From assembly GCF_006716565.1 (NCBI RefSeq), contig NZ_VFPG01000001.1, positions 4,092,001 through 4,156,000 of the forward strand: a stretch of DNA of 64,000 nt. The letters are read 5' to 3'. Positions 18,860-40,627 of the stretch are shown one piece after another. Made by a program: the position numbers and the translations under genes. The notes under the pieces are model-generated. The model was not told where the DNA came from, did no database searches, and saw only the letters and a program-made list of their open reading frames with translations. Every line of letters begins with the position of its first letter. The stretch's first letter is position 1. This stretch comes from Nocardia bhagyanarayanae. Its GTDB lineage: Bacteria; Actinomycetota; Actinomycetes; Mycobacteriales; Mycobacteriaceae.

Positions 18860-18915
18860 GCACCCAACTGATGACCGACAGCGAGGTCATGGTGCGGCCG
18901 CGGCTGTGACGTAGG

Positions 18916-18942
18916 TACTATGACTGCCGTAGGTATGGCAGT
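18916..18942 (+). promoter_or_regulatory. Operator candidate upstream of ArsR-type gene
   Basis: TACTATGAC (18916-18924) is identical to 9 bp in the P450/MFS-monooxygenase divergent promoter (21908-21916). It overlaps an inverted repeat, ACTGCC (18923-18928) with GGCAGT (18937-18942). The site is upstream of the preferred GTG start at 18977, which suggests autoregulation. Confidence 0.45.
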
Positions 18943-18976
18943 TATCAAATCTGCCGCGGCGGAAAGGAATGGGATC

Positions 18977-19321
18977 GTGGCCGATGCCGATGGACATCCC
19001 GATCTCGAGGAATTCGATCTTTCCGCGGTGCTGGCTGCTCTCGCGGACGACAATCGGCGCAGTGTGATCGCGCAGTTGTACGCCGAGCCGGACGGCACCG
19101 AGCAATTCTGCAGCGTGTTCGGGATGCCCTGGGCGCCCTCGACCCGAACGCATCATTTCCGGGTCTTGCGCAAGGCCGGGTTGATCTGGCAGCGGGATGT
19201 CGGCAACGGCCGGATGACGAAGCTGCGGCGCGAGGATATGGAGCGGGTGTTCCCCGGGCTGCTCGGGGCGATCCTCGACGCCGACCGCGGTCGTCATCCG
19301 GCCCAGCCGGCTACCAGGTGA
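18977..19321 (+). CDS. ArsR-family winged-helix regulator
   Basis: The 114-aa protein has the ArsR winged helix: DLSAVLAALADDNRRSVIAQ, STRTHHFRVLRKAGLIWQRD, then NGRMTKLRREDMERVFPGLL. No cysteine metal-binding motif is present on helix 3, so it is probably not a metal sensor. The frame is open to ATG 18920, but that region contains the operator candidate; AAAGGAA seven bases before the GTG at 18977 supports the shorter form. Its 3' end overlaps the convergent P450 gene by 11 bp. It is the likely regulator of the neighbouring P450/MFS/monooxygenase genes. Confidence 0.82.
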   Translation: MADADGHPDLEEFDLSAVLAALADDNRRSVIAQLYAEPDGTEQFCSVFGMPWAPSTRTHHFRVLRKAGLIWQRDVGNGRMTKLRREDMERVFPGLLGAILDADRGRHPAQPATR

Positions 19322-20522
19322 CCGGGAGCGATATCGGGCGGTGTACGAGAACGCCGGTCTCCCAGCGGATCTCATGCTCCGGAACGGCGAGCTCGAGCGT
19401 CGGTAGTTCGGTGACCAGCCGACGCAGCACCTCGGTGATCTCCATCCGCGCCATGGCCGCACCCATGCAGTGGTGCATGCCGTACCCGAACTGCAGGTGC
19501 CGCTTCCCGTTGCGCGCGGGATCGATGACCGCGGGATCCGGGTACACCTCGGGGTCTCGATTCGCCGCGTGCGCGTCGGCATACACGATGTCGCCGGGGT
19601 GCAACACGCCGTGCGACAGTGTGACCTCGCGGGTGGTGACCCGGGGAAAAGTCGAGATCCGGCCAAGCGGCAGCAACCGCAAGAACTCCTCCACCGCGGT
19701 GGGGATGGCGTCCGGGTTGTGCACCAGGTACTGCCACAGCTCCGGTCTCGCGAGCGCCACATAGGCGATCTTGGTGATCACCGACAGGATGTTCTGATCA
19801 CCGCCGACCAACGAGCCGAGCAGAATGGCCGCGTACTCCGCGTCGGACACCGGCGGCGAGACCGAATCGCGCGCCTCGAGCAGGTCGATGATCAGGCCGG
19901 GTCGGAGCTCGCGCCGCCGGGCGATCAGATCCTCGATGTAGTGGAAGAGCGTCCAGAAGTCGGCGAGCAGTTGGTCGATATCGGTGTCGTGGGCCAGCTG
20001 CATCTCCCGCGAAAGATGCCGGAAATAGGCGATATCGGCGGTCGGTATGCCGAGGTAGTCCACATTGACGCCGATGGTCACCGGATCCAGCAGCGCGCGA
20101 ACGAGATCCGCCGACCCCCGCGCTCGCTGCGCACGCAGCTCGGCGAGCGCGTCGTCGAGGACCCGGTGGACCGCGGGCACCCGGCGGGTCATCGTGGCGG
20201 CGCTGTAGGCGGATGCCACGAAGCCTTTGAGCCGCCCGTGCCCCGGATGGTCGAGATTGAGCAGCATTTCCGTCGGCATGATCGTCGGCAGGAAGCTGGG
20301 TCCGTCCTCGACGTTGGTCTCCGCGCGCGCGAAACTCAAGTCGGTCAGTACCGTGTGCACGTCACGGTACGAGGTCACATGCACGGCCGTATGTCCGCTG
20401 GGCAATCTCACCTGCGGCAATCCACCGGCGGAGCGCTGCCGCAGCGGCTGGATCATGGCGGGCGGTGCGATGTTCGCGATGCCGTCGAGATCGACCCGGA
20501 CGGCGTCGAGTGCGTGGGTCAT
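19311..20522 (-). CDS. Cytochrome P450 with atypical I-helix
   Basis: The 403-aa soluble bacterial P450 has the heme loop FGYGMHHCMGAAMAR (Cys thiolate) near residue 350 and the ExxR helix EEFLRLLP near residue 285. In the I-helix the usual (A/G)Gx(D/E)T is replaced by a GGDQN run near residue 243, so the conserved acid-alcohol pair is absent or shifted; this changes expectations for oxygen activation. ATG overlaps the stop of the MFS gene (ATGA), so P450 and exporter are co-translated. Probably a biosynthetic tailoring hydroxylase or an unusual oxidase; substrate unknown. Confidence 0.92.
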   Translation of the reverse strand: MTHALDAVRVDLDGIANIAPPAMIQPLRQRSAGGLPQVRLPSGHTAVHVTSYRDVHTVLTDLSFARAETNVEDGPSFLPTIMPTEMLLNLDHPGHGRLKGFVASAYSAATMTRRVPAVHRVLDDALAELRAQRARGSADLVRALLDPVTIGVNVDYLGIPTADIAYFRHLSREMQLAHDTDIDQLLADFWTLFHYIEDLIARRRELRPGLIIDLLEARDSVSPPVSDAEYAAILLGSLVGGDQNILSVITKIAYVALARPELWQYLVHNPDAIPTAVEEFLRLLPLGRISTFPRVTTREVTLSHGVLHPGDIVYADAHAANRDPEVYPDPAVIDPARNGKRHLQFGYGMHHCMGAAMARMEITEVLRRLVTELPTLELAVPEHEIRWETGVLVHRPISLPVTW

Positions 20523-21847
20523 GAGCTGACTCCTTCTGGGGTGGAACCGATTTCCCGGTTCTCGGTGACTCGCGCGGTGCCGCGCACCACGACGATGAGG
20601 ATGGTGAGCACGACGAGCAGGGCGATGAGCACGCCGACGGTGGTGGTGAAGGCGGAGCGGTAGACGTCGGGGTGCCCGTATTGGCCCGCGGCGGTGTCGT
20701 CGGCGGCGGACCCGCTGAGCCGGCTGCCGACGACCGCGGAAAGCACGATGGCGTATCCGGCGACGAAGACCGCTTCGCTGCCGATGCGGAAGAAGTTCAG
20801 CACCCCCGCGGCGGTCCCGCCGCGTTCGGCGGGCACGACCGACAACGCGTGCCCGTCGACCAGTCCGATGGGCAGGCCGAAGCCGAGGCCGAGCAGCACC
20901 ATCGGCAGGATGATCCAGGCCACCGGACGGTCCTGTGAGAGCGCGAGAACGCCCGCGTTGCCGAGAATCAGGGCGGCCAGGCTCAGATGGACGACCTTGC
21001 CGATGGTCAGCGACGGGAAGCGGGTGACCAGCTGTCCGATGGCGACCGGTGCCACGAAGACGGGGATCGTCATGGCGAGCATGAGCAACCCGGAGGTGCC
21101 CGCCGACAGATCGGTGATGCCGCTGAGCGCCGAGGGCAGGTAGGTCAGCAGGGTGACGAAGCCGATCGAGCCCGCGACCGGCACCAGGCACATCGCCAGG
21201 AATTCCCGATTGCGCAGCAGGCCGAGGTCGAGGATCGGGCCGTGTTCGGTGGCGGCGGGCTTCGCCGCGGGCAGCAGGCGCGTACCGAGGCCCGCGGCCG
21301 CGAGGATCACCGCGTGCACCACGAACACACCCCGCCAGTCCAGCAGCGAGATCAAGACGCCGGAGATGGTCGGGCCGAGCGCGAGACCCAATCCGTTCAC
21401 CGTGCCGAAGACGGCGAAGGCTCGAATACGTTGCGCTCCTTGGTAAGCGGTCGACAACAAGGCGGTGGCGCCGGTGAGGATCGCCGCGGCGCCCACACCG
21501 GCGATCACCCGGGCCCCGTCGAGTACGAGCAAGTTCGGAGCCGCGACACTACCGACGCTGCCCGCGACGACGAGCGCGGCGCCGATCTCGAAGGTGCGCC
21601 GATGCCCGATGCGGTCACTGACCGCGCCCCACAGCAGAGTGGTGAGCGCGAAGGCGATGTTGAATCCGTTGACAACCCATTGCAGAGCGGTGGGATTCGA
21701 GCCGAGATCGTGCGAGATTCGCGGTAGCGCGATGGCGGTGCCCGCGATGGCCATGGGTGTGACGAACTGAGCGGCGAGCACCACGGGAAGCGTCGCGCTA
21801 CTGGGTGGTGCGCTCTGGGTTTCGAACTCAGCGGTGACAGTCGACAT
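20519..21847 (-). CDS. MFS transporter (DHA2-like drug/metabolite exporter)
   Basis: The 442-aa protein has about 12 hydrophobic segments. The motif-A loop LLWGAVSDRIGHRRTFEIG follows TM2, and a motif-C-like GPTISGVLISLLDWRGVF occurs near TM5, marking drug/proton antiporters. The frame is open far upstream over the divergent monooxygenase, but ATG 21847 gives the standard N-terminus (MSTVTAEFETQSAPP before TM1). It is divergent from the FAD monooxygenase and coupled to the P450, which suggests export of their product or resistance to it. Confidence 0.9.
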   Translation of the reverse strand: MSTVTAEFETQSAPPSSATLPVVLAAQFVTPMAIAGTAIALPRISHDLGSNPTALQWVVNGFNIAFALTTLLWGAVSDRIGHRRTFEIGAALVVAGSVGSVAAPNLLVLDGARVIAGVGAAAILTGATALLSTAYQGAQRIRAFAVFGTVNGLGLALGPTISGVLISLLDWRGVFVVHAVILAAAGLGTRLLPAAKPAATEHGPILDLGLLRNREFLAMCLVPVAGSIGFVTLLTYLPSALSGITDLSAGTSGLLMLAMTIPVFVAPVAIGQLVTRFPSLTIGKVVHLSLAALILGNAGVLALSQDRPVAWIILPMVLLGLGFGLPIGLVDGHALSVVPAERGGTAAGVLNFFRIGSEAVFVAGYAIVLSAVVGSRLSGSAADDTAAGQYGHPDVYRSAFTTTVGVLIALLVVLTILIVVVRGTARVTENREIGSTPEGVSS

Positions 21848-21889
21848 GAATACCCCTGTGACGGTGGGTGAGATGACTTTTGCGGCAGG

Positions 21890-21923
21890 TACTACCCGGC
21901 TAGTAGATACTATGACGTTAGTA
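21890..21923. promoter_or_regulatory. Tandem TACTA-N6-TAGTA operators in divergent promoter
   Basis: TACTA-CCCGGC-TAGTA (21890-21905) and TACTA-TGACGT-TAGTA (21908-21923) are two inverted repeats with the same half-sites and spacer, 18 bp apart. They lie between the divergent MFS and FAD-monooxygenase genes, and the second shares TACTATGAC with the ArsR gene promoter. Two helical-turn-phased dimer sites are inferred. Confidence 0.65.
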
Positions 21924-21991
21924 GCTACGCTGCTTGTCGTACAACCGCTGTCGCGGACCGGCCCCCGACCACCTCGCCCCAGGAGAATGTG

Positions 21992-23421: not shown

Positions 23422-24087
23422 TCAGCCCGGCCATCGCTCCAGCGCCTCACGCACCTCGCCGATCGCCTGCCCGGCATCGCGGAAGCGCACCGCTGTCCAT
23501 CCCGATTCTTTTGCCGCCGCGCAGTTTTCGGCGAGATCGTCGATCAGGATGCACTGGCCGGGCTCGACGCCCGCGGTCTCGGCCGCGATGGCGAAGATCT
23601 CCGGATCGGGCTTGCGGAACCCCACCTTGCACGAATCGATCAATGCGCTCAGCACATCGTCCAGATCGATCATGGCGCGCCAGTACGGCTCCCATTCGAC
23701 GACATTGTTGCTCAGCACCCCGACGCGGGTGCCGCCCTCGGCGAGCTCGATCGCGAACTCGCGCACCGCGTCGTTCACCCGATGGCCGGCGAACCACTGC
23801 TTGCCGAAATCCGGCTCACTGCGGGACAGATCCAGCTCGGGCGCCTTGGCGCGCAGGACGGCGTGCAGCTTGCTCACCCAGGCGCGTTCGTCGAGCAACG
23901 CCAGTTCGATCGGGGCCAGCGGCGCGAGCCCGTACTGGTTTCCCACCTCGGCGATCGCGTATTTGAACAGATCCACCGGAATGCCCGCGACCTGCTCGTA
24001 CCGGAGAAACAGCTCATCCAGCGGCGGTGAGAGCACCCCGCCGAAGTCGAACCAGACGAACGGGACCGCCGTGTCCGCCGCGCTCAC
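23422..24087 (-). CDS. HAD-superfamily hydrolase, partner of AfsA-type synthase
   Basis: The 221-aa HAD hydrolase has motif I WFDFGGVLS (DxG rather than DxD), motif II VGVLSNN, motif III lysine in VGFRKPDPEIF, and motif IV CILIDDLAENC. The missing second Asp occurs in other FDxG HAD phosphatases such as the YihX group, so activity remains likely. Its GTG start overlaps the AfsA stop codon (GTGA). In gamma-butyrolactone and furan signal pathways a phosphatase removes the dihydroxyacetone-derived phosphate after AfsA condensation (for example MmfP with MmfL). That role is inferred here from context. Confidence 0.85.
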   Translation of the reverse strand: MSAADTAVPFVWFDFGGVLSPPLDELFLRYEQVAGIPVDLFKYAIAEVGNQYGLAPLAPIELALLDERAWVSKLHAVLRAKAPELDLSRSEPDFGKQWFAGHRVNDAVREFAIELAEGGTRVGVLSNNVVEWEPYWRAMIDLDDVLSALIDSCKVGFRKPDPEIFAIAAETAGVEPGQCILIDDLAENCAAAKESGWTAVRFRDAGQAIGEVREALERWPG

Positions 24088-25079
24088 TGAACCATCGTCC
24101 AGACGTCGGCCGGGCGGAACCGCAGCTCCACTTCACCGGCGGCGATCACATCCTCGCCCTGGGCGAGGCTCACCTGTGCCAGTGCGCCACCGAGGTTGCC
24201 GGGAACGGCGGCGACGGTGGCCCTGGCAATCGTGTCGCGTTCGAACTCACCGAATTTGCTGAACGCGATGCCGAGCCGATGCATCACCATGCGGCTGGTG
24301 TCCAATCCGAGGATCGCGTTCGCGGCGGCCATCGCGACCTGCCGAGCCGCCTCGAACTGCAACATGCCAGGCACGTGGTCGAGGGCGTGATCGAACAGCG
24401 AGGGGTGATTGGTGTCGATGATGGTCAACGCCGTCAGTTCGTCCCCCGACAGCACCGGGTTGGCGAGGATGGCGTTGCGCGGATTGTGCCTGCCGATCGA
24501 TCCCGGCCGCATCCGGGCGACCGGCAACTGCTCCGGAATCGCGTGCTGCGCGGGCAGACCCAGCGATTCGCGCCCGCGTACCCGGATCCGGTTCCACACC
24601 GGAGCGGGCATCCACTGGTAGACCATCACCTCTCTGGCCGCTGGATGGCCCTCGATCTCGGCGACCATCTCGAGTGAGAGCCCGATGATCTGATCGTCAC
24701 GGCGCTTCTCGCCGATCACCCGCGCCTCGATGACGCAGTGTCCCGGGCAGCTACCGATCCGCAGCGTGTCGGGATCGATGATCGCGAAATCCGCCGAACC
24801 GAAGATGAACTTCTCCGACCGGGCGACACCGACGAAGGTGTGCGCGTAATAGATCGCCACCTGACGGAAGACCTCGATCAGCAGGAGCGGATCGTAGGTC
24901 GTCGAGGTGCCCCGGTGATCACTGAAATACGAGTGATTGCGGGGTAGTTGAGCGGCGAACACAGCGCCGTCGGGTCTCGGATGCGCGTCGGTGAGGAACA
25001 CCTCGGCGATCGATTCCCGGTGCACTATGCCGCGGGGGATATTGCGATCGAAGGTCAGGGTTTGCGTTGCGGCGGTCAT
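24084..25079 (-). CDS. AfsA-family gamma-butyrolactone/furan signal synthase
   Basis: The 331-aa protein has two AfsA hot-dog repeats. The first has VHRESIAEVFLTDAHPRP, FAAQLPRNHSYFSDH and DPLLLIEVFRQVAIYYAHTF; the second has DHALDHVPGMLQFEAARQVA. These are the conserved blocks of AfsA, ScbA and BarX-type enzymes, which condense a beta-ketoacyl thioester with dihydroxyacetone phosphate to start butenolide/butanolide autoregulator synthesis. AGGAAGG lies before the ATG. It is 40 bp after the ABC-transporter receptor gene on the same strand with no terminator between, and is coupled to a HAD phosphatase-like gene. No ArpA-type receptor lies nearby. Confidence 0.93.
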   Translation of the reverse strand: MTAATQTLTFDRNIPRGIVHRESIAEVFLTDAHPRPDGAVFAAQLPRNHSYFSDHRGTSTTYDPLLLIEVFRQVAIYYAHTFVGVARSEKFIFGSADFAIIDPDTLRIGSCPGHCVIEARVIGEKRRDDQIIGLSLEMVAEIEGHPAAREVMVYQWMPAPVWNRIRVRGRESLGLPAQHAIPEQLPVARMRPGSIGRHNPRNAILANPVLSGDELTALTIIDTNHPSLFDHALDHVPGMLQFEAARQVAMAAANAILGLDTSRMVMHRLGIAFSKFGEFERDTIARATVAAVPGNLGGALAQVSLAQGEDVIAAGEVELRFRPADVWTMVQ

Positions 25080-25119
25080 GATCGAGCCTTCCTGGGGCGG
25101 TGTTTTCGGGGCAGACTGG

Positions 25120-26823
25120 TCAGCGGACGGCGATGTCGTATGCCCAGGCGTTGACGCTGTTGCGAGGCGGATCGAACAGCGAGGTCACGTGGTGGATCGC
25201 GGAACTGGCTGCGACACTGTTGCGGTCGGTGTACAGCGGTATCGCGACGGCCTTGTCGAGCAGGTAGCCGGTGATCTTGTCGAACAGCTGCTTGCGTTGT
25301 TCCCGGTCGGTCGCCTTCGTCGATTCGACGAGCCATCGGTCCACTTCCGGATCGGCCAGCTTGGACCCCGCGACGATGGACCCGATGGTGATCCCGTCGA
25401 TCTGTCCGTACTTCAGATCCGGCGAGGTCGAGCCGTAGGCGCGGTTGAACTGCAGCGACAGATCCAGACCGCCGACCTGGCGGGGGAACGCCTCGTACTG
25501 GTTGCGGGCGAGCAAGTCGTAGACCTGGGCGTTCTCGACGAATTGGAGTTCGACCTGAACACCGAGGTTCTGGCGCAGTTCGGCCTGCCAGGCTTCGAGG
25601 AAATCGTCCTCGGGATAGGTCGGCACGGTCGCGAGCAAGCGGATGGTCAACCGGCGGCCCGCGCTGTCGGTGCGGTACCCGTCGGCGTCCGTGCCGGTCC
25701 AGCCCGCTTCGTCGAGCAGAGCGTCGGCAGCGGCGATATCGGCGGTTCCTTTGTTCTCGTATTTCGGGTCGTAGTAGGCGCTGTCGGGCGAGATCAGGCT
25801 CCATGCGCGTTTCTGGGAACCCTTGGTCAGACTGTCCACCACCGCGGCGATGTCGACGCCCTTGGCGATGGCCCGCCGTACCCGCAGATCTGTGGTGGGG
25901 CCGTTGGTGAGGTTGAGCATGATCACCGTCGGCGCGGCCGCCGAGCCGATCTGCTCGTACTGGAAGCCGTCGATTCCGTCGAACAGCGGAATATCGGTGG
26001 CCTTGACGGTTCCGATCGCATCGACCTCCCCGCTGCGCAGCAGTCCCGCCCTGGTGGATGCCTCGGGGATGTATTTGACGACGACTTTGTCGACGTATGC
26101 GGCGCCTTGGTGCCGGGCGGTGGCCGGGCCCCACCGGTAGTCGGGGTTCTTACGGAATTCGAGCTCTTGGCCTTGAACCGCCTTGTCGAGGATGAACGGG
26201 CCCGTACCGACCAGCCCGGTCCCGCTGGTGACGGTCTGCTTGTCGGCGGTCAGGGTGCTGGGAGCGACGATCGCGCCGCTGAGTCCGGCGAGCGTGGACA
26301 GGAAGTCCGCGCGGGGTGTGCTCAGCGTGATCCGCACCTTGTAGGGGTCGAGCACATCGACCGAGCTGACGCTCGAGTACTGGAGCAGGCCGAGCACGGT
26401 CCAGGACGGGGAGTCCGGATTACGGAGGAGGTCGATGTTCGCCTTGACGGCATGCGCGTCGAACTTCTCCCCGTTGTGGAAGGTCACGTCCGTGCGCAGG
26501 GTGAACTCGTAGACCGTGCCGTCCGGGGAGACGGTCCATTCGGTGGCGAGCCACGGGTGGAACTGTTCGTTCCGGTCCTCGGCGACCAGGCTGTCGTAGC
26601 TGTTGCGTAGTACCTGGGAGGCGTCGAAGGCGGCTCCGTAATGCGGATTGAGGCCGCGCTGAGGGTAATTCGGCAAGGCGATGGTGAAGGTCCCGCCGGA
26701 TTGCGGTGGCGATGTCGGTCCGCCGTTGCCGCTGCCGGGCTCCGGGTCCGCCGCGCAGGCGCCTGCGGCCAAGGCCATGCCGGCGACCAGCACGGTGAAC
26801 AGTCGAGTGATGCGGTTACGCAC
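25120..26823 (-). CDS. ABC transporter substrate-binding lipoprotein, family 5 (peptide/nickel/opine type)
   Basis: A receptor of about 567 aa of the Opp/Dpp type (solute-binding family 5). The N-terminus RNRITRLFTVLVAGMALA ends in AAGAC, a lipobox that would anchor it to the outer face of the membrane. Typical motifs are NPHYGAAFDASQVLRNSYDS, WTVSPDGTVYEFTLR and NGEKFDAHAVKANIDLL. The GTG at 26823 overlaps the ATPase gene by 8 bp and is preferred to the ATG at 26883, which would add a charged 20-residue extension. Family members bind peptides, metal chelates and opines, so substrate cannot be fixed by sequence. Confidence 0.9.
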   Translation of the reverse strand: MRNRITRLFTVLVAGMALAAGACAADPEPGSGNGGPTSPPQSGGTFTIALPNYPQRGLNPHYGAAFDASQVLRNSYDSLVAEDRNEQFHPWLATEWTVSPDGTVYEFTLRTDVTFHNGEKFDAHAVKANIDLLRNPDSPSWTVLGLLQYSSVSSVDVLDPYKVRITLSTPRADFLSTLAGLSGAIVAPSTLTADKQTVTSGTGLVGTGPFILDKAVQGQELEFRKNPDYRWGPATARHQGAAYVDKVVVKYIPEASTRAGLLRSGEVDAIGTVKATDIPLFDGIDGFQYEQIGSAAAPTVIMLNLTNGPTTDLRVRRAIAKGVDIAAVVDSLTKGSQKRAWSLISPDSAYYDPKYENKGTADIAAADALLDEAGWTGTDADGYRTDSAGRRLTIRLLATVPTYPEDDFLEAWQAELRQNLGVQVELQFVENAQVYDLLARNQYEAFPRQVGGLDLSLQFNRAYGSTSPDLKYGQIDGITIGSIVAGSKLADPEVDRWLVESTKATDREQRKQLFDKITGYLLDKAVAIPLYTDRNSVAASSAIHHVTSLFDPPRNSVNAWAYDIAVR

Positions 26824-28429
26824 GCGAATGGCTTTCTGTGGGGGCCCGCGCCGGAAGGCGCGGAACGGAATCGAGGAGGGCACGGGTGTACGGGGAGGTC
26901 GGGGCGGTGAAAACCGCGTCGGCCGAGCCGGATTCGACGATCACGCCGTCGTGCAGGACGAGCACGCGGTGACAGATCTGCCGGATGACGGCGAGGTCGT
27001 GCGAGATGAAGACGATGCCGACCCGGCGGGTCCGCGCGAGTTCGGCGATCAGCGTGAGGATCTGGGCCTGTACCGAAATGTCGAGTGCCGAGACCGGTTC
27101 GTCGCACACCACCAGCCGCGGTTCGCTACCGAGCGCTCTGGCGATGTTGACGCGTTGGCGCTGTCCGCCGGACAGTTCCCGAGGGTGGCGGTCGATGCTG
27201 TCGGCGGGCAGGTGCACCGCCGCCAGCAAGCGCCGGACCTCGTCGCGGCGCTCGTGCCTGCCGACGCGGAGCGCGACGCTCTCGCCGATGATCTCGCCGA
27301 CGCGGTAGCGGGGGTCGAACGAACCGACCGAATCCTGCGCCACCAAGCCGATCTGGCCGGGCAGGCGCGTCGCGCGTGTCAACGGCGCTCCGGCGAAACG
27401 CATTTCGCCGCCGTCCGGCGCGACAAGCCCGGTGATCATCTTGGCCACCGTCGACTTTCCCGAACCGGATTCGCCGACCACACCGAGCACTTCACCGGCA
27501 TGGACATCGAACCCGATACCGGTGACCGCCGGGACCGTACGACCGCGCACCCGATACGACTTGGCAAGCGAGGTGGCGGTGAAAACCGGGTCACCGGGCG
27601 GCGCGGGCGGCGCGTCGGCCCGGCCGTGCGGAACCGCGGCGATCAGGTGCCTGGTGTACTCGTGCTCGGGGTTCTCGATGACCGTCCTGGCCGGTCCCGC
27701 CTCGACGACGCGACCCGATTTCATCACCAGGATGCGATCGGCCACCGACGCGACCACGGCCAGATCGTGGCTGACCAGAATCATCGACCTACCACCTTCG
27801 ACCTGCCGAACCAGCAGATCGAGCACCTGCGCCTGAACGGTCACGTCGAGCGCCGTGGTCGGCTCGTCGGCGATGAGAATGTCCGGATCACCGGCCAGCG
27901 CGGACGCGATCAGCGCTCGCTGACGCTGGCCGCCCGACAGCTGGAACGCCCGCTGACGCCTGCGCGCTTCGGGATCGGCGATACCGACCGAGGTCAGCAA
28001 CTGGTCGATCCGAGCCTCGCGTCGATCGCGGGGCAGCGCCCGCAGCGATTCACCGATCTCCTCGGCGATGGTGCGCAGCGGGTCGAGCGCGACGAGCGCG
28101 TCCTGGAGCACCAAACCGATTCGCGCGCCGCGGATTCGGCGCCACTGTCGTTCGGTCAGTGCCAGGGCCGAGCTACCGAACAATTCGAATCGGTCGGCGC
28201 GCACTCTGGCGCCGTCGCCGGCGAGCCCGACGAGACTGCGCGTGGTCACCGACTTGCCCGATCCCGATTCGCCGACGATGGCCAGGATCTCGCCGCGCCG
28301 AAGGTCGAAGCCGACCCCGTCGACGATGTCGCCCGCCCTCCCGGCGAAGCCGACACGCAGGTTCCGCACCCGCAGCACGATGTCGGTGCCCGTGCCCTTC
28401 GGGGGCGCGGCGGTGGCCGTGAGCGTCAT
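26816..28429 (-). CDS. Fused double ABC ATPase of the oligopeptide/dipeptide type
   Basis: The 537-aa protein is DppD and DppF in one chain. The N-terminal half has Walker A GESGSGKSVTTRSL, signature QLSGGQRQRALIA and Walker B ILIADEPTTALD. The C-terminal half has GESGSGKSTVAKMI, ELSGGQRQRVNIA and LVVCDEPVSALD. Both halves keep the catalytic Glu and the H-loop (SHDLAV), so two active sites are expected. The ATG at 28429 overlaps the permease stop (ATGA). Confidence 0.95.
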   Translation of the reverse strand: MTLTATAAPPKGTGTDIVLRVRNLRVGFAGRAGDIVDGVGFDLRRGEILAIVGESGSGKSVTTRSLVGLAGDGARVRADRFELFGSSALALTERQWRRIRGARIGLVLQDALVALDPLRTIAEEIGESLRALPRDRREARIDQLLTSVGIADPEARRRQRAFQLSGGQRQRALIASALAGDPDILIADEPTTALDVTVQAQVLDLLVRQVEGGRSMILVSHDLAVVASVADRILVMKSGRVVEAGPARTVIENPEHEYTRHLIAAVPHGRADAPPAPPGDPVFTATSLAKSYRVRGRTVPAVTGIGFDVHAGEVLGVVGESGSGKSTVAKMITGLVAPDGGEMRFAGAPLTRATRLPGQIGLVAQDSVGSFDPRYRVGEIIGESVALRVGRHERRDEVRRLLAAVHLPADSIDRHPRELSGGQRQRVNIARALGSEPRLVVCDEPVSALDISVQAQILTLIAELARTRRVGIVFISHDLAVIRQICHRVLVLHDGVIVESGSADAVFTAPTSPYTRALLDSVPRLPARAPTESHSRA

Positions 28430-29280
28430 GGCTGTGCCCTTCGTTCGAAGCGGTGGCCGGCGTATCGGCCGAGCACCGTGGTCGCCAGGACGACGACAGT
28501 GACGGCGGCGCCGGGGAAGACGACCGACCACCACGCGATACGCAGATCGCCGTGCGCCTCGGCGAGCATCGATCCCCACTCCGGTTCGGGGGGTTTCGGT
28601 CCGAAACCAAGGAAACTCAATGCCGCGGCACCGAGAATGCTGGTGCCGAGGCCGAGGGTGACCACGACCGGAAGCGAGCGCAGCGCATTCGGCAGGATGT
28701 GGCGGATCACGATCCGCGACCGCGACCTGGTGAGCAGGCCCGCCTGCGCGACGTACTCGCTGCCGCGCACGGCACGGGTTTCCGCGCGCATCACCCGCGC
28801 GAATCGGGGCGCCGCGGCGATCCCGATCGCGAGAACGAGATTGGGCGTGCCGGTGCCGGTGAAGGTGATGAGCACCAAGGCGAGCAGAATTTCCGGGAAG
28901 GCGCCGAGCAGGTCGAAGGCGCGCGAGGCGATCGCGTCGACGGCGCGTCCGCCGATACCGGCCACCAGGCCGAGCGTCACACCGATCACCACGGCCAGTG
29001 CCGTCGCCGACACCCCGATGAACAGCGACAACCGCGCGCCGTGCACGACGCGGGTGAACACGTCGCGGCCGAGTCGATCGGTGCCGAACGGGTGCGGCAC
29101 CGACGGCGGCCGATGCGCCGAGACCAGATCGGTTTGCAAGGGATCACCGGAGGCGATCAGCGCGGGCGCGATCGCGGCGAGTACCGCCAAGGCGAGCACC
29201 GCTGCCGCGAGCCACACGCCGGCGGGCCATGTGGCCGAGGGCGCGGTAAACCGTTGCCGCAGCGCGGCTGTCGTCGTCAT
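28426..29280 (-). CDS. ABC transporter permease, DppC type
   Basis: The 284-aa inner-membrane permease has about six helices. HPFGTDRLGRDVFTRVVHGA, near residue 65, is diagnostic of DppC/OppC proteins, and AGLLTRSRSRIVIRHILPNA is the EAA-type coupling loop. Its start overlaps the DppB-type gene's stop (ATGA). It pairs with that permease to form the channel. Confidence 0.94.
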   Translation of the reverse strand: MTTTAALRQRFTAPSATWPAGVWLAAAVLALAVLAAIAPALIASGDPLQTDLVSAHRPPSVPHPFGTDRLGRDVFTRVVHGARLSLFIGVSATALAVVIGVTLGLVAGIGGRAVDAIASRAFDLLGAFPEILLALVLITFTGTGTPNLVLAIGIAAAPRFARVMRAETRAVRGSEYVAQAGLLTRSRSRIVIRHILPNALRSLPVVVTLGLGTSILGAAALSFLGFGPKPPEPEWGSMLAEAHGDLRIAWWSVVFPGAAVTVVVLATTVLGRYAGHRFERRAQP

Positions 29281-30224
29281 GCGGCGGCCTCTCGCAGGCG
29301 CGGGTCGATCCAGAGATAGGCGATATCGACGATCACCGTGACTGTCAGGTAGACCGCGGCGGTCAGCAGCGCGACACCCAGAACCACCGGGACATCGGAG
29401 TAGGTGACGGCCTCGACGGTGACCCGCCCGACCCCGGCCCGGCCGAAGACCTCCTCGATCACCACGGTTCCGGTGAGCAGCCCGCTCACGGCCCACCCGG
29501 CCAGGGTCGCGGCCGGTATCAGCGAATGCCGCAGTCCGTGCCGTAGGCGCAGGCGAGTGGCGCCGATTCCCCGTGCTCGGGCGGTCAGCGCGAACGGCTG
29601 CTCGAGCGCGCGCTCGATACCCTCCCGCATGACCTGCGCGAGGACCGCCGCGATCGGCAGGGCCAGGGTGACGGCGGGAAGTATCAAGCGCTGGAACTCG
29701 TTTCCCGCGGTCACCGGCAGTACCTTCATGGTGAAGGCGAACACCCAGATCAAGATCAGGCCGGTCCAGAAGGGCGGCGCCGAGGCCACCACGATCTCCG
29801 CCGTGGCGACCGACCGGCTGAACACATCGCGCCGGCCCGCGGTGAGGACGGCCAGCAGCGGTGCGAGCACGACCGAGATGAGCAAGGCGAACCCGGCGAG
29901 CTGGGCACTGGTGCGCAATTGCTCGCCGAACAAGATGTCGGTCACCGGTTCGCCGCGGACATACGAGTAGCCCAGGTCGCCGTGCAGCAGTCGCGCGAGG
30001 TGCCGGCCGTACTGCACGACCAGCGGGCGATCCAGACCCCAATCCTGCTCGATTCGCGCACGCAAGCTCGGATCGCTGGACTCACCCATGATCGCGGTGA
30101 CCGGATCTCCCGGAGCTATATGCACCGCGAGGAATGCCAAGGTGATCGCGGCCCACATCATCGCCACTGCGGACAGGACCACACTCGCGATGCGACGGAA
30201 GACGATGTGCCGGTAGGTATTCAC
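29277..30224 (-). CDS. ABC transporter permease, DppB type
   Basis: The 315-aa permease has the DppB/OppB N-terminus with the first membrane helix and AVHIAPGDPVTAIMG, then ERALEQPFALTARARGIGA and RHGLRHSLIPA as the coupling loop, and EEVFGRAGVG. It starts with GTG three bases after the upstream rhodanese stop, so both are in one operon. Confidence 0.94.
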   Translation of the reverse strand: MNTYRHIVFRRIASVVLSAVAMMWAAITLAFLAVHIAPGDPVTAIMGESSDPSLRARIEQDWGLDRPLVVQYGRHLARLLHGDLGYSYVRGEPVTDILFGEQLRTSAQLAGFALLISVVLAPLLAVLTAGRRDVFSRSVATAEIVVASAPPFWTGLILIWVFAFTMKVLPVTAGNEFQRLILPAVTLALPIAAVLAQVMREGIERALEQPFALTARARGIGATRLRLRHGLRHSLIPAATLAGWAVSGLLTGTVVIEEVFGRAGVGRVTVEAVTYSDVPVVLGVALLTAAVYLTVTVIVDIAYLWIDPRLREAAA

Positions 30225-30227
30225 GGC

Positions 30228-31076
30228 TCAGTCCTCGATGGGCGCGCCGACCAGGCTGCCCCATTCGGTCCAGGAACCGTCGTAGACGCGGACCCGGTGA
30301 TCGCCGAGCAGGTCGGTGAACACCAGCCAGCCGAGCGCGGCGCGATGCGACAACCTGCAGTAGGCGATGATCTCCTCGGCTCGCTCGATGCCGAGCGCCG
30401 CCACACGCTCGCGAATCTCGGCTACCGGCCGCAGCAGACCGTGCTCGTCGAGCAGATCCCGCACCGGAAGACTCAGCGCGCCCGGAATGTGCCCGGCCCG
30501 TTCGGCGCCGTGATCGATCGGTTCGGTGAGCGGCGCGACGCGCAGGCCCGAATACTCTTCCGGAGAACGCAGATCCACGATCGCGGTCGGCGATTCGATC
30601 GCGGCGCGCACCTCGTCGCGGCCTACGACGAGTTCGTCATGGCGCGGCGGAATCTGGGGGAGCGGCGCGTCGACGGGCGCATGCGACCCGGCGACGGCCG
30701 CCAGGGGAGCGAACTTCGGATCGCTGTCGCGCCAGGCCGGTAGCCCGCCGTCCAAGTACCGGAGGTCGCCGCCGACACCGACGGCCGCGGCCACCCAGAT
30801 CGCGTAAGCGGCGAATTGGGTCGGCTCACCCGCGAAGACCACCGTCGACGTCGCGTTCGCGCCCAGCGCGTGCAGACGGTCGGCCAGTACCCGCGACGAT
30901 GCGAACTCGCGGCGCGAGCGATGCCAGAGCAGATCCTTCCAGTACACGGTGCGCGCACCCGCGATGGTGCTCTGATCCGGCTCGAACCCCGGCGTGTTGA
31001 TCACCTCGATGACGACGACGCCCGGGTCCGACAGACGGGACCGTAACCATCCGGCGTCGACTATGCGGCTCGTCAC
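30228..31076 (-). CDS. Two-domain sulfurtransferase (rhodanese), first of a divergent pair
   Basis: A protein of about 282 aa with two rhodanese domains. The N-terminal one (VVVIEVINTPGFEPDQ, TVYWKDLLWH, YLDGGLPAWRD) is inactive-type. The C-terminal one has AIVDLRSPEEYSG, AGHIPGALSLPVRDLL and the active loop AYCRLSHRA with its catalytic Cys. Such enzymes move sulfane sulfur, for example from thiosulfate or 3-mercaptopyruvate. The GTG at 31076, with GGGAG just upstream, is preferred over the longer frame from 31166, which would begin inside the divergent promoter. It is the first gene of the likely seven-gene operon ending in AfsA-HAD. Confidence 0.88.
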   Translation of the reverse strand: MTSRIVDAGWLRSRLSDPGVVVIEVINTPGFEPDQSTIAGARTVYWKDLLWHRSRREFASSRVLADRLHALGANATSTVVFAGEPTQFAAYAIWVAAAVGVGGDLRYLDGGLPAWRDSDPKFAPLAAVAGSHAPVDAPLPQIPPRHDELVVGRDEVRAAIESPTAIVDLRSPEEYSGLRVAPLTEPIDHGAERAGHIPGALSLPVRDLLDEHGLLRPVAEIRERVAALGIERAEEIIAYCRLSHRAALGWLVFTDLLGDHRVRVYDGSWTEWGSLVGAPIED

Positions 31077-31158: not shown

Positions 31159-31218
31159 GTGAACACAAAAAGTCACCGAGACTCGAATTATGTGTTCACC
31201 GCGTCCGGATACATATCC
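31159..31218. promoter_or_regulatory. Divergent promoter with candidate MocR sites
   Basis: GTGAACACA (31159-31167) and TGTGTTCAC (31191-31199) are a perfect 9-bp inverted repeat separated by 23 bp. Eight bases further, GGATACATATCC (31207-31218) is a near-palindrome. TATGTGTTCA and, inverted, GGATACATAT both recur in the MocR gene promoter. The region separates the two rhodanese operons. Confidence 0.6.
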
Positions 31219-31257: not shown

Positions 31258-32112
31258 ATGTCCGGCGAACGTGCCGCCCACCTCATATCCGTCCGTCGGT
31301 TGCGCGACGATCCGCCTGAGCGGCTGGTCCTGCTCGATGTCCGGGTCGGCGTGGATGGACCGGATCGGACGAGTTTCCGGCGCGGACATCTGCCCGGTGC
31401 GCGGTTCGTCGACCTCGACGCGGATCTGGCGGGCGCCGCCACCCGGCACTCCGGCGCCCGCCCGCTCCCGGACACCGAAACCCTCACCGCCGCACTACGC
31501 CGCTGGGGCATCCATTCCGACAGCACGGTCGTGGTCTACGACGACTCCCGCGCGGTGCCCGCCGCCCGAGCTTGGTGGGTGCTGAGGTGGGCGGGACTGC
31601 CCGATGTCCGGATTCTGGACGGCGGGTTGCGGGCGTGGCGCGAGGCCGGGGGCGCCCTCGTTTCCGGCGCCGAACCGGCCGTACCGGGGACCGAGGCGGC
31701 ACAACCGGCCGGACTCCCGGTCGTCGATACCGCGGCCGTGGCGGCCCTGCCCGGACGCGGTGTGCTCCTGGATGCCCGCCCACGCGAACACTTTCGCGGC
31801 GATGGCGAGTTCGCCGGTCACATTCCCGACGCCATCAGCGCACCGGTGTTCGACGACTTCGACGAGCGTGGCCTACTGCGCGACGAGCACAGCCTGCGCA
31901 CCCGCTACCGGGATCTCGGCCTCACCGCGGGGACGGCCGCCGCGACGTACTGCGGCAGCGCCATGGCCGCGGCCCTGCAGGTATTCGTCCTCGCGACCCT
32001 CGGCCTCGACATCGCGTTGTATCCCGGAGGTTTGTCGCAATGGGCAGCCGACCCGGCCCGTCCACTCGTCCGCGGCGCATCCGCCGCGCCGCGACCCGTC
32101 CCGTCACCCTGA
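31258..32112 (+). CDS. Two-domain sulfurtransferase (rhodanese), second of the pair
   Basis: The 284-aa tandem rhodanese has VLLDVRVGVDGPDRTSFRRG and VYDDSRAVPAARAWWVLRW in the first domain, and VLLDARPREHFRGDGE, GHIPDAISAPVFDDF and the active loop TYCGSAMAA in the second. The loop resembles 3-mercaptopyruvate sulfurtransferase types (SseA-like CGSGVTA). AAAGGGG lies four bases before the ATG. It starts the plus-strand operon with the two luciferase-like monooxygenases. Confidence 0.88.
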   Translation: MSGERAAHLISVRRLRDDPPERLVLLDVRVGVDGPDRTSFRRGHLPGARFVDLDADLAGAATRHSGARPLPDTETLTAALRRWGIHSDSTVVVYDDSRAVPAARAWWVLRWAGLPDVRILDGGLRAWREAGGALVSGAEPAVPGTEAAQPAGLPVVDTAAVAALPGRGVLLDARPREHFRGDGEFAGHIPDAISAPVFDDFDERGLLRDEHSLRTRYRDLGLTAGTAAATYCGSAMAAALQVFVLATLGLDIALYPGGLSQWAADPARPLVRGASAAPRPVPSP

Positions 32113-32128: not shown

Positions 32129-33433
32129 ATGGCCGACCATCCACGACATGTCATCCTCAACGCCAACCTGATACCCGGCGGCACGATCGGCAGCCCTTGG
32201 CGGCGAGCGCCGGAGCCCGCGGCGCATTTCGTCGGCATCGAGCACTATCTCGATGTGGCGCGCACCGCGGAACGGGGCCTGCTCGATGCCGTGTTCCTCG
32301 CCGATTCGCCGGATCTCCAGGCCAAGGATTGGAATGCGCCGAGCAGGCTGCTCGACCCTTTCGTCGCCCAAGCTGTCATCGCGGCGAACACCAGCCATAT
32401 CGGCCTGATCGTCACCGCGACCACGTCCTACAACGACCCCTACAATCTGGCCCGCTCGTTCGCGGCACTGTCCGCGGTATCGGGCGGACGGGTGGGCTGG
32501 AACTACGTGGTCACCGGCGGCGACGCCGCGGCGCGCAACTACTCGATGGATCAGGCTTTGCCGAAATCCGAGCGGTATGCCCGTGCCGCCGAGTTCATCG
32601 ATGTGGTCACCGCGCTGTGGGATTCGGCGCCCGCCGACGCGATCGCCGGTGACAAGACGACCGGTCGCTACCTCGATCCGGCGATCGTGCGGCCGATCGA
32701 TCACGACGGCAAGTTCTTTCGAGTGGCCGGGCCGTTGAAGACACCGCCGCTGACCCACGGCAGGCCGGTGCTGATCCAAGCGGGCGCCTCCACACACGGT
32801 GTGGAATTAGGAGCCAGGACCGCCGACGCGGTCTACTCCGCGCATGTCGATCCCGCGTCCGCGGCCCGGCGCCGTACCGATCTGCGTAGTCGAGCCCAGG
32901 CCGCTGGGCGTCAGCCCGACAGTGTGAAACTGCTTCCGGGGCTGATCATCGTGCTCGCCGATACCGAAGCGGCGGCCCGGCGACGCGAACGCGAACTCAT
33001 CGACCTCATCCCGGACGATGTCCAGCTGATCAATCTCGCGGAACGGCTCGGCGTCGAACCCGACGCCCTCGATCTCGACGCTCCCTTCCCGTGGGACAAG
33101 ATCCCAGACGAGAACGCCGACGCAGGCTCGCGTGGGCAGCGCGCGGTGTTGCTCGAATACGTCCGATCCAGCGGCGCAGATACACGGGGCGCCGCACGGC
33201 TGCTCGCCTCCGGCAGTGTGCACGCGAAGGTTGTCGGCGGCCCCGATCAGGTGGCCGGGTTCATCGCGGACTGGTTCGAGTCCGGCGCCTGCGACGGATT
33301 CAATCTGATGATCGATGAACTGCCCGGCGGGCTGGCCGAATTCGTCGATCACGTCGTCCCGCTGTTGCGGCGGCGCGGCATCGTCCGCACAGAGTACGAA
33401 ACCGCCACGCTGAGAGGGCATTACGGGTTATGA
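32129..33433 (+). CDS. Flavin-dependent monooxygenase, NtaA/SnaA/DszA family
   Basis: The 434-aa luciferase-like TIM-barrel protein resembles the NtaA/SnaA/DszA(SoxA) group: LIVTATTSYNDPYNLARSFA, GRVGWNYVVTGGDAAARNYS, DHDGKFFRVAGPL and PVLIQAGASTHG. These enzymes use reduced FMN from a separate reductase to cleave C-N or C-S bonds, in nitrilotriacetate/EDTA, pristinamycin precursors and dibenzothiophene sulfone. GGAGAG lies before the ATG, and the gene overlaps the next by 4 bp. With two rhodaneses beside it, an organosulfur substrate is favoured, though an amine chelate cannot be excluded. No flavin reductase gene lies in the operon. Confidence 0.9.
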   Translation: MADHPRHVILNANLIPGGTIGSPWRRAPEPAAHFVGIEHYLDVARTAERGLLDAVFLADSPDLQAKDWNAPSRLLDPFVAQAVIAANTSHIGLIVTATTSYNDPYNLARSFAALSAVSGGRVGWNYVVTGGDAAARNYSMDQALPKSERYARAAEFIDVVTALWDSAPADAIAGDKTTGRYLDPAIVRPIDHDGKFFRVAGPLKTPPLTHGRPVLIQAGASTHGVELGARTADAVYSAHVDPASAARRRTDLRSRAQAAGRQPDSVKLLPGLIIVLADTEAAARRRERELIDLIPDDVQLINLAERLGVEPDALDLDAPFPWDKIPDENADAGSRGQRAVLLEYVRSSGADTRGAARLLASGSVHAKVVGGPDQVAGFIADWFESGACDGFNLMIDELPGGLAEFVDHVVPLLRRRGIVRTEYETATLRGHYGL

Positions 33434-34398
33434 CCGCGCCATCGTTGTTCGTGCAGTTGCGCAGCGGCCCACCGGCCGCCGAGGTCTACCGGCGCACCAT
33501 CGAGATCGCCGTGCGGGCCGAACAACTCGGCTACCGCACGATCTGGTTCGCGACTCGCCATTTCGAGGCGCATCACGCGGCCCTGCCCTCGGTTTTCCCG
33601 TTCGTGGCCGCGGCCGCCCAGCACACCACCAGGATTCGGCTCGGCACCGGCGTGGTGGCGCTGCCGTTCGAGCACCCGGTGCGCTTGGCCGAGGATGCCG
33701 TCGTCACCGACGCGCTCAGCGGCGGACGACTCGAACTCGGCCTCGGCAAAGGTCTGGGATTCGGGCATTCCGCCGCCAGCCACGCCGGATTCGGTGTCCC
33801 CGACACCGACCGGGAATCGCTCTACGCCGAGCGGGTAGCCGACCTGCAACGCGTACTGGCCGACGGCCGCGTCACCGAGGACATCGCCCTGTACCCGCCA
33901 CCCGGAACGCTGCGCTCTCGGATGTGGCAGTCCACCGGGAACATCGACACCGCTCGCCGCGCGGGCGCCGCGGGCGATGGCCTACTGCCACACGGGAATT
34001 CGCAGGCGCGGGCCGGTGGCAGCGTCGGCGAGCTCGTCGACGCCTACCTGGCCGAATGCCGGACCACCCCGCGGATCGGGTCGAGCGTGGCGGTGCTGCC
34101 CGCCGACAGTGAACGCGACGCACTTGCCTTGCTCGACACCGACATTCGCTCGAGTCCTGCCTTCTACCCGGAGCTGCACGGCGAATCCGACCGGCGGCGA
34201 TTCTTGGCGGACAACCGGATCTACTTCGGCTCGGCCGGGCAGATCGTCGATCGGCTACGCGCCGACCGGGACCGCGCCGCCGCCACCGATGTGTTGTTCT
34301 ACGTCCCGCTCGCGGTCGACCATCCCCGCTATCTCGACTGCCTGCACCGCATCAGCGCCGAGATCGCCCCGCATCTGCTCCCACTGCCGACCCCGTGA
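33430..34398 (+). CDS. LLM-class flavin-dependent oxidoreductase (luciferase-like)
   Basis: The 322-aa luciferase-like monooxygenase has AEQLGYRTIWFATRHFEAHH, IRLGTGVVALPFEHPVRLAE, DALSGGRLELGLGKGLGFG and WQSTGNIDTARRAGAAGDG. It is a shorter bacterial-luciferase/alkanal-monooxygenase type than its upstream neighbour and probably acts on the next intermediate of the same substrate or as a partner. It starts by ATGA overlap with the NtaA-type gene. Confidence 0.88.
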   Translation: MTAPSLFVQLRSGPPAAEVYRRTIEIAVRAEQLGYRTIWFATRHFEAHHAALPSVFPFVAAAAQHTTRIRLGTGVVALPFEHPVRLAEDAVVTDALSGGRLELGLGKGLGFGHSAASHAGFGVPDTDRESLYAERVADLQRVLADGRVTEDIALYPPPGTLRSRMWQSTGNIDTARRAGAAGDGLLPHGNSQARAGGSVGELVDAYLAECRTTPRIGSSVAVLPADSERDALALLDTDIRSSPAFYPELHGESDRRRFLADNRIYFGSAGQIVDRLRADRDRAAATDVLFYVPLAVDHPRYLDCLHRISAEIAPHLLPLPTP

Positions 34399-34443: not shown

Positions 34444-35802
34444 TCAGTCCAGGAACTCCCGATGCGCGGCGCCGGCGGCTTCGGCGAGCAGGCGGGCGAG
34501 CTCGGCGATCGAGGCGTCGTCGTCGGGTAGCTGCGGTACCGCCACTCGCACCGCGCCCGGCCGCGGCGGCGTCACATGGGATTTCGCGCCCGACCCGACG
34601 ACGATCCCGTGCCGTGCCAACCTGAGCAGCGCACCCTGCTCGTCGGCGACCTCGACCCAGACCACCAGGCTGTTGACCCCGGACCGTGCGGTGACGCCGT
34701 GCTCGCGCAGCGCTGAGAGCAAGCCCGCCCGCCTGGCCGCATAGCGCCCGCGCGCGGTGTCGATCAATGCCGCGGTATCGCGGTCGCCGATCAAATGCGC
34801 CAGCGCGTTCTGCAGGATTCGGCTGTTGGCGGCGATACCGTGCACCCGCGCGCGAATGGCTCGCTCGACCAGCTCCGCGCTCCCACCGATGACGCAGGTC
34901 CTGATGTCCATCCCGTAGGCCTTGCAATAGCTACGCACACGGACGCTGCGCTCGGGAAAGAAGCTGCCCAGCGACGGCGCCTGCGTGCGGGCCAGCGGAC
35001 CCACCGCGTCGTCCTCGACGATCCACGGTATCGACTTCGCCGACGACAACACCTCGGCCAGCTCGGCCGCCCGGTGCTCCGACAGCGCCCCGCCTGCGGC
35101 ATATCCGCCCTCCGGCTGGAGGACCACCACCGCTGGTTCCCGCCGCAGGGCCGAGGCAAGCGAATCCGCACGGGCGCCGTGCTCGTCGGATTCGATACCG
35201 GCCACCTCGTATCCGACATCGGCAAGGGTGTCGAGAAAGCCCGGCATCACCGGCTCTTCCACCGCGACGAGCGAGCCGGCGGGCGCGGCGGCGTCCACGG
35301 CGAGAAACAATCCCTCGGAACCGCCACCCGCCGCCACGAACGCCTCGGCCGCGAAGGGCCAGCCGTCGACCACCGCGTCGCGGAGCCGATCGGTGATGTA
35401 ATCGCGCCCGGGACGGTTGAGCCGGTCGGTATGCAACCCGGCCAGCATCGCCGGTGCCAGATCCGGCTGCAGATCGTAATCGGGACTGCCCGTCAGCAGG
35501 TCCCGGTCCGCGAGCGCGCGGCCCGCGGGTCTCTCGTCGAGTTCGGCCACCACCGTGCCACCGCGCCGGTTGGTGGCGATCAGACCTTCCTTGCGCAACT
35601 CACCCCAGGCGGCGACGACCGTGCGGGTGCTCAGCCCGCAATGCTGTGCCAGCTCTCTGATGGTCGGCAAGCGCGCACCCGCCGCGAGTGCGCCCTCACG
35701 GATCAGCTGGGCGGTCACCGCCCGCACCGACTCGGAGGTATGCGACGCGTTCGCCTCCAACGCCCGCACCAGCAGCGCAGAACCCGGCTCCGTCACTGAC
35801 AC
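34444..35802 (-). CDS. MocR-type regulator (GntR wHTH fused to PLP aminotransferase domain)
   Basis: The 452-aa protein has an N-terminal GntR winged helix (residues 20-80: SVRAVTAQLIREGALAAGA, LPTIRELAQHCGLSTRTVVA) and a fold-type I aminotransferase domain with SYCKAYG, whose Lys should bind pyridoxal phosphate. It begins with GTG and has no clear ribosome site. It is convergent with the luciferase operon. MocR proteins usually control nearby transport or amine/taurine-type metabolism. The promoter shares 10-mers with the divergent rhodanese promoter, so it likely controls that locus and itself. Confidence 0.9.
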   Translation of the reverse strand: MSVTEPGSALLVRALEANASHTSESVRAVTAQLIREGALAAGARLPTIRELAQHCGLSTRTVVAAWGELRKEGLIATNRRGGTVVAELDERPAGRALADRDLLTGSPDYDLQPDLAPAMLAGLHTDRLNRPGRDYITDRLRDAVVDGWPFAAEAFVAAGGGSEGLFLAVDAAAPAGSLVAVEEPVMPGFLDTLADVGYEVAGIESDEHGARADSLASALRREPAVVVLQPEGGYAAGGALSEHRAAELAEVLSSAKSIPWIVEDDAVGPLARTQAPSLGSFFPERSVRVRSYCKAYGMDIRTCVIGGSAELVERAIRARVHGIAANSRILQNALAHLIGDRDTAALIDTARGRYAARRAGLLSALREHGVTARSGVNSLVVWVEVADEQGALLRLARHGIVVGSGAKSHVTPPRPGAVRVAVPQLPDDDASIAELARLLAEAAGAAHREFLD

Positions 35803-35886: not shown

Positions 35887-36097
35887 CGCTGACGGCCACC
35901 GCCGCGGCGACGGTTCTGATCAACTGTGCGCCAATGGGTTCGCCCACGAGCACTCGGGGACGTAAAGTACCGCCGGGCGGGTGTTCAACAGCCAGCACCT
36001 CGCCGCTCGTCAGCGACCCGCCGTGTGCGGTGCCGCGCGAGTCGGCGTGCCCAGTCGGACCTCATACGGTCCGAACCGGGACGAAGCGAGGATGGCA

Positions 36098-40626
<4,529 letters not shown>

Positions 40627-40627
<1 letters not shown>

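Follow-up and report, generated by a model that had tools for sequence, protein, structure and literature searches.

We analysed a window of 64,000 nucleotides from Nocardia bhagyanarayanae (positions 4092001-4156000 of contig 1 of a 7.56 Mb genome in two contigs), in which genes for an AfsA-type synthase and a HAD hydrolase adjoin a putative import operon. Seven genes follow one another in tandem on the minus strand: rhodanese/sulfurtransferase 1, with a CRLSHR loop (30228-31076), permease B (29277-30224), permease C (28426-29280), a fused two-domain ATPase (26816-28429), an SBP_bac_5 solute-binding protein with an N-terminus that is lipoprotein-like by eye (25120-26823), the AfsA-type double-hotdog synthase (24084-25079), and the HAD hydrolase (23422-24087). 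Their junctions measure +3, -4, -4, -8, +40, and -4 bp. Profile searches found the domains as named (rhodanese, BPD_transp_1 in two genes, ABC_tran twice, SBP_bac_5, HAD), and SBP_bac_5 with two permeases and two ATPase domains defines an importer of the Opp/Dpp/Nik type. The original prediction, which placed AfsA and a HAD partner at the end of such an operon, was thus borne out in positions, strand, and domains. The 40-bp binding-protein/AfsA junction (25080-25119, minus strand) carries a Shine-Dalgarno-like AGGAAGG and lacks the ArsR-kind palindrome described below.

The gene set had been taken to end at the HAD gene, which proved too narrow, as four closely packed genes beyond it belong to it too. 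A flavin adenine dinucleotide (FAD) monooxygenase (PF01494; 21989-23413, plus strand, alternative ATG at 21992) converges with the HAD gene at a distance of 8 bp and diverges from a gene for an efflux-type MFS exporter (20519-21847, minus strand), whose stop overlaps the start of a cytochrome P450 (19311-20522, minus strand); convergent with the latter is a gene for an ArsR-type winged-helix regulator of 133 residues with a single cysteine, Cys64 (18920-19321, plus strand). The palindrome TAGTANNTACTA, with an 18-bp spacing, marks the divergent MFS/FAD-monooxygenase promoter and the ArsR start codon. The predicted operator array at the former (21883-21930) holds copies at 21901 (no mismatch) and 21919 (two mismatches), 18 bp apart and preceded by a half-site recognised by eye, while a copy with two mismatches (18909-18920, 16.4 bits) reaches the ArsR start codon as a predicted autoregulatory operator. 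A minus-strand open reading frame at 18887-19762 was rejected as a gene, its matches having stemmed from the strand opposite the ArsR gene. On the other side of the operon, the divergent rhodanese promoter contains an inverted repeat, GTGAACACA-N23-TGTGTTCAC (31159-31199), and no ArsR-kind palindrome. Across it lie rhodanese/sulfurtransferase 2, with a CGSAMAA loop (31258-32112, plus strand; a start at 31258 is likelier than the GTG at 31159 because the latter sits inside the inverted repeat), luciferase-like monooxygenases 1 (32171-33433, plus strand, start approximate) and 2 (33430-34398, plus strand), and a MocR (GntR/aminotransferase) regulator that is kept alongside the importer block (34444-35802, minus strand).

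The AfsA protein contains two PF03756 stretches (145.8 bits, cut-off 24), and the E..RQ motif of both repeats (E69, R72, Q73 and E243, R246, Q247) is invariant in 22 of 22 sequences. We take these to be the residues of the ScbA active site, although a literature search on ScbA residues gave no confirmation; a comparison with PDB sequences returned no credible relative. The HAD protein has motif I in the form DxG instead of DxD, with D14, K159, D183, and D184 invariant in 11 of 11 sequences, and is probably a butenolide-phosphate phosphatase. Two further AfsA genes occur in the genome. By eye, one of them lies among ligase-, carrier-protein-, reductase-, and prenyltransferase-like genes, and the other beside polyketide-synthase-, thioesterase-, FAD-monooxygenase-, and MMPL-like genes (the two loci are L017, contig 2, 327094, and L018, contig 1, 4304655).

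The genes around AfsA recur as a cassette. Among the best 80 of 164 named AfsA loci, 40 have a HAD gene of at least 44% identity within 9 kb of AfsA, and only 11 of these 40 are linked to the importer (L113 on the basis of binding protein and ATPase alone); they are 11 of the 13 joined clusters known to us, the other two, G125 and the window, being outside the named set. The 29 loci without an importer gene come from Streptomyces, Kitasatospora, Glycomyces, Rhodococcus, Williamsia, Nocardia, and Corynebacterium, among others. They contain a P450 in 27 cases (in L125 through a 27% match only), an FAD monooxygenase in 24, an MFS gene in 25, and an ArsR gene in 20; 19 loci have all four, and several of the missing genes fall at contig ends. 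AfsA and HAD thus appear to be the entry enzymes of a recurrent cassette with an FAD monooxygenase, an MFS exporter, a P450, and an ArsR-type regulator. The 40 loci lacking such a HAD gene mostly resemble other kinds of AfsA locus, although two (L130, L138) retain an ArsR match and six combine a HAD match of 33-39% with an FAD monooxygenase of 29-33% identity. The importer as the standard partner of the AfsA-HAD pair was accordingly rejected, since 29 of 40 loci do without it and it also occurs without AfsA (see below). The cassette P450 is itself unusual. P450s commonly carry [AG]-G-x-[DE]-T in the I-helix; here the motif is G-[GA]-D-[QNH]-N in all 35 loci tallied (matches of at least 34% identity, L107-L186 only), GGDQN in the window, and the customary acid-threonine pair is missing. 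These P450s might carry out unusual oxygen chemistry or have a role other than that of an oxygenase.

The importer, the rhodaneses, and the luciferase-like monooxygenases likewise appear to form a separate block, also found without AfsA in five loci (L092-L096, of which L094-L096 at 47-48% identity), all of which retain a luciferase-like monooxygenase and MocR and all except L092 a rhodanese. Luciferase-like monooxygenase 1 passes the TIGR03860 (NtaA/DmoA) cut-off (430.9 against 279.7 bits); those of TIGR04027 and TIGR04028 (KPN_01858 and KPN_01854) were missed, at 201.4 against 412.9 bits for luciferase-like monooxygenase 2 and at 203.8 against 468.5 bits. Because an NtaA/DmoA-type monooxygenase, two sulfurtransferase-type proteins, and an Opp/Nik-type importer occur together, the block probably serves organosulfur use or scavenging. 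A luciferase-like monooxygenase and rhodaneses are raised on an organosulfur substrate according to the available text of one study (PMC5157978), which backs this reading only weakly because its genes come from separate loci. The exact 8-bp arms of the inverted repeat at the rhodanese promoter are kept in four of ten loci (the window, L107, L112, L114) and broken in the other six (L108-L110, L115, L118, L119).

Across the genus, 11 genomes out of 150, counting that of the window, contained an AfsA orthologue (75-100% identity); a binding-protein orthologue (68-100%) was present in these same 11, adjacent to AfsA each time, so the arrangement is not due to chance. A twelfth genome (G015, locus L062) has no importer but retains roughly the last 45 AfsA codons together with HAD and a portion of the FAD monooxygenase. 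When 401 genomes of the family were sampled, five outside the genus had AfsA at 67% or more (G295, G212, G211, G251, G155) and three had the binding protein at the same threshold (G251, G282, G380), only Williamsia deligens (G251) having both, joined. With a further joined cluster in Gordonia sp. ABSL11-1 (L115), the total is 13. In the Williamsia deligens cluster (L090, 8200-10939), the AfsA match runs in two frames and a stop lies within the binding-protein match, reflecting decay or sequencing error. Four close relatives are importer-less, namely Rhodococcus sp. HNM0569, R. yananensis (contig end 1.6 kb short of AfsA), R. maanshanensis (no match to AfsA residues 1-43), and Gordonia jinhuaensis (contig ending within AfsA), and no binding protein was found in these genomes at E 1e-95. 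Conversely, in L092 (G282) the ArsR (80%) and MFS (73%) genes and two palindromes stand next to the importer, and TetR-like and hydrolase-like genes (functions assigned by eye) replace P450, FAD monooxygenase, HAD, and AfsA.

Three trees, with warnings of long branches leading to the distant rows, bear on the history of the joining. In the AfsA tree, which included 14 hand-chosen distant loci and drew a long-branch warning, the four importer-less sequences branched from the 13 joined ones at 94/100, with the inner order of the joined group open, so AfsA alone leaves the direction unsettled. A rooted tree of six concatenated cassette proteins, inferred under a simpler model and with a long-branch warning, comprised ten of the 13 joined clusters (all except L108, L113, and L055), the four importer-less relatives, and ten hand-chosen distant importer-less cassettes as root. 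Here the joined clusters grouped in a single clade (98/99), with the four importer-less relatives next to it (100/100), which makes one joining from an importer-less state the simplest reading. In the binding-protein tree, L092 was nested among the joined clusters (98/97), which implies at least one later loss, while the position of L093 was not settled.

The regulator encoded in the cassette has an ArsR winged-helix fold and one invariant cysteine, and resembles the redox sensor RexT, although it falls below the Pfam HTH_20 cut-off (21.0 against 27 bits). The alignments concerned (A3 and A4) omit L112, L132, L141, and L143, with a stop in one row, and A4 also omits L092. Compared with the redox ArsR regulators of the RexT (Nostoc)/CyeR type, in the portion of the source available (PMC8960804), a cysteine stands at the position of RexT Cys41 and an arginine at that of RexT Arg61; the remaining RexT residues are not kept, Cys40 of the Cys40-Cys41 pair being absent, Thr68 replaced by Gln, and Asn77 by Ala, Thr, or Val. 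From the position and conservation of the palindromes, the likely targets of the protein are its own gene and the divergent MFS/FAD-monooxygenase promoter. A weak form of the palindrome also precedes AfsA in two of three testable importer-less relatives, and a matrix scan, whose control was drawn solely from training and testing loci, found none before AfsA in any of the 13 joined clusters; AfsA-HAD may therefore have moved from ArsR to importer control. An exact-arm search before cassette genes gave no element common to distant loci; repeats resembling GTGGCNTNCGCCAC lie near -100 of AfsA in L128, L129, L131, and L133.

Taken together, these results suggest as a rather likely reading that a cassette for making and exporting a butenolide-type compound was attached to the 3' end of an import operon of the scavenging type, and that this joining rewired the control of AfsA and HAD. 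The event would go back to an ancestor shared by the present clusters of some Nocardia, one Gordonia, and one Williamsia. Judging from the protein families, the pathway would begin with a condensation of dihydroxyacetone phosphate and a beta-ketoacyl thioester by AfsA; once the HAD protein had taken off the phosphate, the FAD monooxygenase and the unusual P450 would tailor the product for export by the MFS protein, a chemistry that by analogy follows the SRB and methylenomycin furan (MMF)/AHFA precedents as far as their available texts describe them (PMC7564063, PMC7037778). The joining would place AfsA-HAD mainly under the importer promoter and leave tailoring and export with ArsR, such that nutrient state would set the onset of synthesis and a second signal, probably thiol- or product-sensed, would govern maturation and export.

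Several observations weigh against this reading. The AfsA protein scores 189.8 bits, just below the equivalog cut-off of 200 of NCBIfam NF041195 (ScbA/BarX), and nine of the 29 importer-less cassettes have no ArsR gene on the stretch examined. The weak sites upstream of AfsA come from two loci only and score under the trained sites (15.2 or more), and sites before ArsR reach 9.9 in eight of 16 loci with assumed starts (11 of 16 when the sites of L057, L058, and L060 are included). The matrix also matches elsewhere, at 19.3 bits within the AfsA gene of L071 and at 12.9 in L100 distant from the cassette; the pattern, with at most one mismatch, is not enriched genome-wide (nine places per strand against 33 for a reversed-pattern control), and the palindrome was not found near cassette genes of the distant loci L063-L066, L097-L104, and 15 of L122-L147. 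As for the imported substrate, the ATPase exceeds the NikD (361.4 against 318.7) and NikE (343.9 against 332.55) cut-offs, which leaves a metal-type substrate as open as sulfur; the binding protein (200.8 against 393, NikA) and the permeases (197.2 against 447, NikB; 200.7 against 358.45, NikC) miss theirs.

Among alternatives, it is quite conceivable that the product is an antibiotic or other end product rather than a signal, exported by the MFS protein with ArsR as the exporter's regulator, which would be compatible with the proposed wiring. An MFS gene and a small regulator adjoining tailoring oxygenases are typical of self-resistance, and the cassette fits this; the other two AfsA genes of the genome also lie amid biosynthetic-looking genes, and no ScbR-type receptor is nearby. 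Nothing decisive opposes it, but the AfsA-phosphatase pairs with products in the literature, as far as the available texts go, make signals. Regarding the receptor, the ArpA/ScbR type was rejected for the window, where the NF041196 scores of 41.6 and 36.9 bits fell far short of the 150-bit cut-off; the earlier statement that the window holds no receptor consequently stands for the TetR type and fails to account for the ArsR-type regulator with its conserved palindromes. The genome-wide search that had been proposed, in which 150 of 235 candidates were scored, gave as its nearest TetR genes three at 143, 138, and 127 bits, all below the cut-off (contig 1, 2570583; contig 1, 719675; contig 2, 499254) and far from all three AfsA genes.

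We consider it rather unlikely that the two blocks are mere neighbours, i.e. independent units in which a separate promoter within the 3' end of the binding-protein gene drives AfsA-HAD, whose regulation owes nothing to the importer. Both blocks do exist apart elsewhere, and silent-site conservation within the binding-protein gene peaks in its last 25 codons (25123-25197; 0.80, mean over the gene's segments 0.66, z 2.5; seven rows per test), a further point against rewired control, as this raised conservation means that an AfsA promoter may lie there and give independent expression. A higher z (3.45) was reached by just one of the 12 genes, MFS, whose stop overlaps the start of the P450 gene. 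The promoter scan (0 sites against 1.2 in shuffles) is unable to exclude such a promoter. However, the gap between binding protein and AfsA is 29-59 bp in all 12 joined clusters measured, and 13 of 13 lack the palindrome that an AfsA promoter under ArsR control should have. Moreover, no minus-strand terminator-like site was found between 25120 and 25079, as originally predicted, in a scan of 17.5 kb that returned four sites (5.4 in shuffles), those on the minus strand being 28635-28616, inside the permease C gene, and 31159-31144. The suggestion that the importer takes up the butenolide or a precursor, or that the signal serves as a readout of substrate import, is very improbable despite the strict co-occurrence and adjacency in the 11 genus genomes having either orthologue, given that importers without AfsA keep their luciferase-like monooxygenase and MocR, and mostly their rhodanese, that the importer-less cassette is the commoner among named loci (29 against 11 of 40), and that the cassette has an MFS exporter of its own, a gene content that speaks for nutrient scavenging by the importer and for export by the MFS protein.

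A more specific circuit with two keys can be sketched, which we regard as doubtful. Sulfur limitation would act through the importer promoter to yield synthase and phosphatase, and the electrophilic product or a redox signal linked to it would modify the single cysteine of ArsR, freeing the tailoring and export genes, while the P450 would subject the product to an uncommon reaction.

AfsA-type hormones are known chiefly from Streptomyces, with TetR receptors. The cassette described here is widespread and departs from this paradigm in its ArsR-type regulator, predicted operator, and unusual P450, and the importer junction conserved in 13 clusters agrees with the earlier view that the arrangement is unlike the Streptomyces gbl/scb loci. 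In the open-licence literature we found no ArsR-type receptor tied to AfsA products or a butenolide, and, by title among the listed papers on Nocardia with AfsA, none on this cluster. Relatives with and without the importer operon before AfsA offer a natural experiment on nutrient gating of hormone synthesis, which, if the proposed wiring is true, nutrient state could switch on.

The closest described systems share parts of the cassette. Like the window, the SRB locus of Streptomyces rochei places synthase (srrX), phosphatase (srrP), and P450 (srrO) next to each other; the available text also lists a dehydrogenase (srrG) and a thioesterase (srrH), neither seen in the window cassette (PMC7564063). 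The window differs from it in having an FAD monooxygenase, MFS, ArsR, and a fused importer, in lacking an ScbR-kind TetR repressor, and in the GGDQN motif, known here for cassette P450s alone. The MMF/AHFA loci combine an AfsA-type synthase (MmfL/AhfaL), for which condensation with dihydroxyacetone phosphate has been proposed, a phosphatase (MmfP/AhfaP), and a flavin-dependent enzyme (MmfH/AhfaH), as in the window; in the text available, the three biosynthetic genes are described without P450 or MFS, and two TetR-type repressors take the place of ArsR (PMC7037778; MmfH is likened here by description, not by sequence). The Rhodococcus gblA-gblR-gblE locus shares with the window the Nocardiaceae and an AfsA-type gene with two PF03756 repeats but has, as described in the part of the paper available, an adjacent TetR receptor and an epimerase, non-conserved flanks, and a phosphatase that is not pathway-specific (PMC5735094). 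Plasmid pFiD188 of Rhodococcus fascians (NZ_CP015236.1) carries AfsA, HAD, MFS, and FAD monooxygenase as consecutive genes (35, 29, 35, and 30% identical to their counterparts in the window); unlike the window, the row has an aldo/keto reductase and no P450, with TetR and MMPL genes nearby and no importer in 17 kb. An AfsA-type gene also occurs on a gammaproteobacterial plasmid, in Klebsiella michiganensis (L086), where a HAD-IB phosphatase, the AfsA-type gene, an acyl carrier protein, and asnB stand in a row near insertion sequences.

An Rfam scan of the whole window gave no matches. Beyond the MocR gene, positions 35981-43002 contain a histidine kinase with seven HAMP stretches, GAF, and receiver domains, and a gene for an ANTAR/GAF/PAS/SpoIIE protein overlaps its end.

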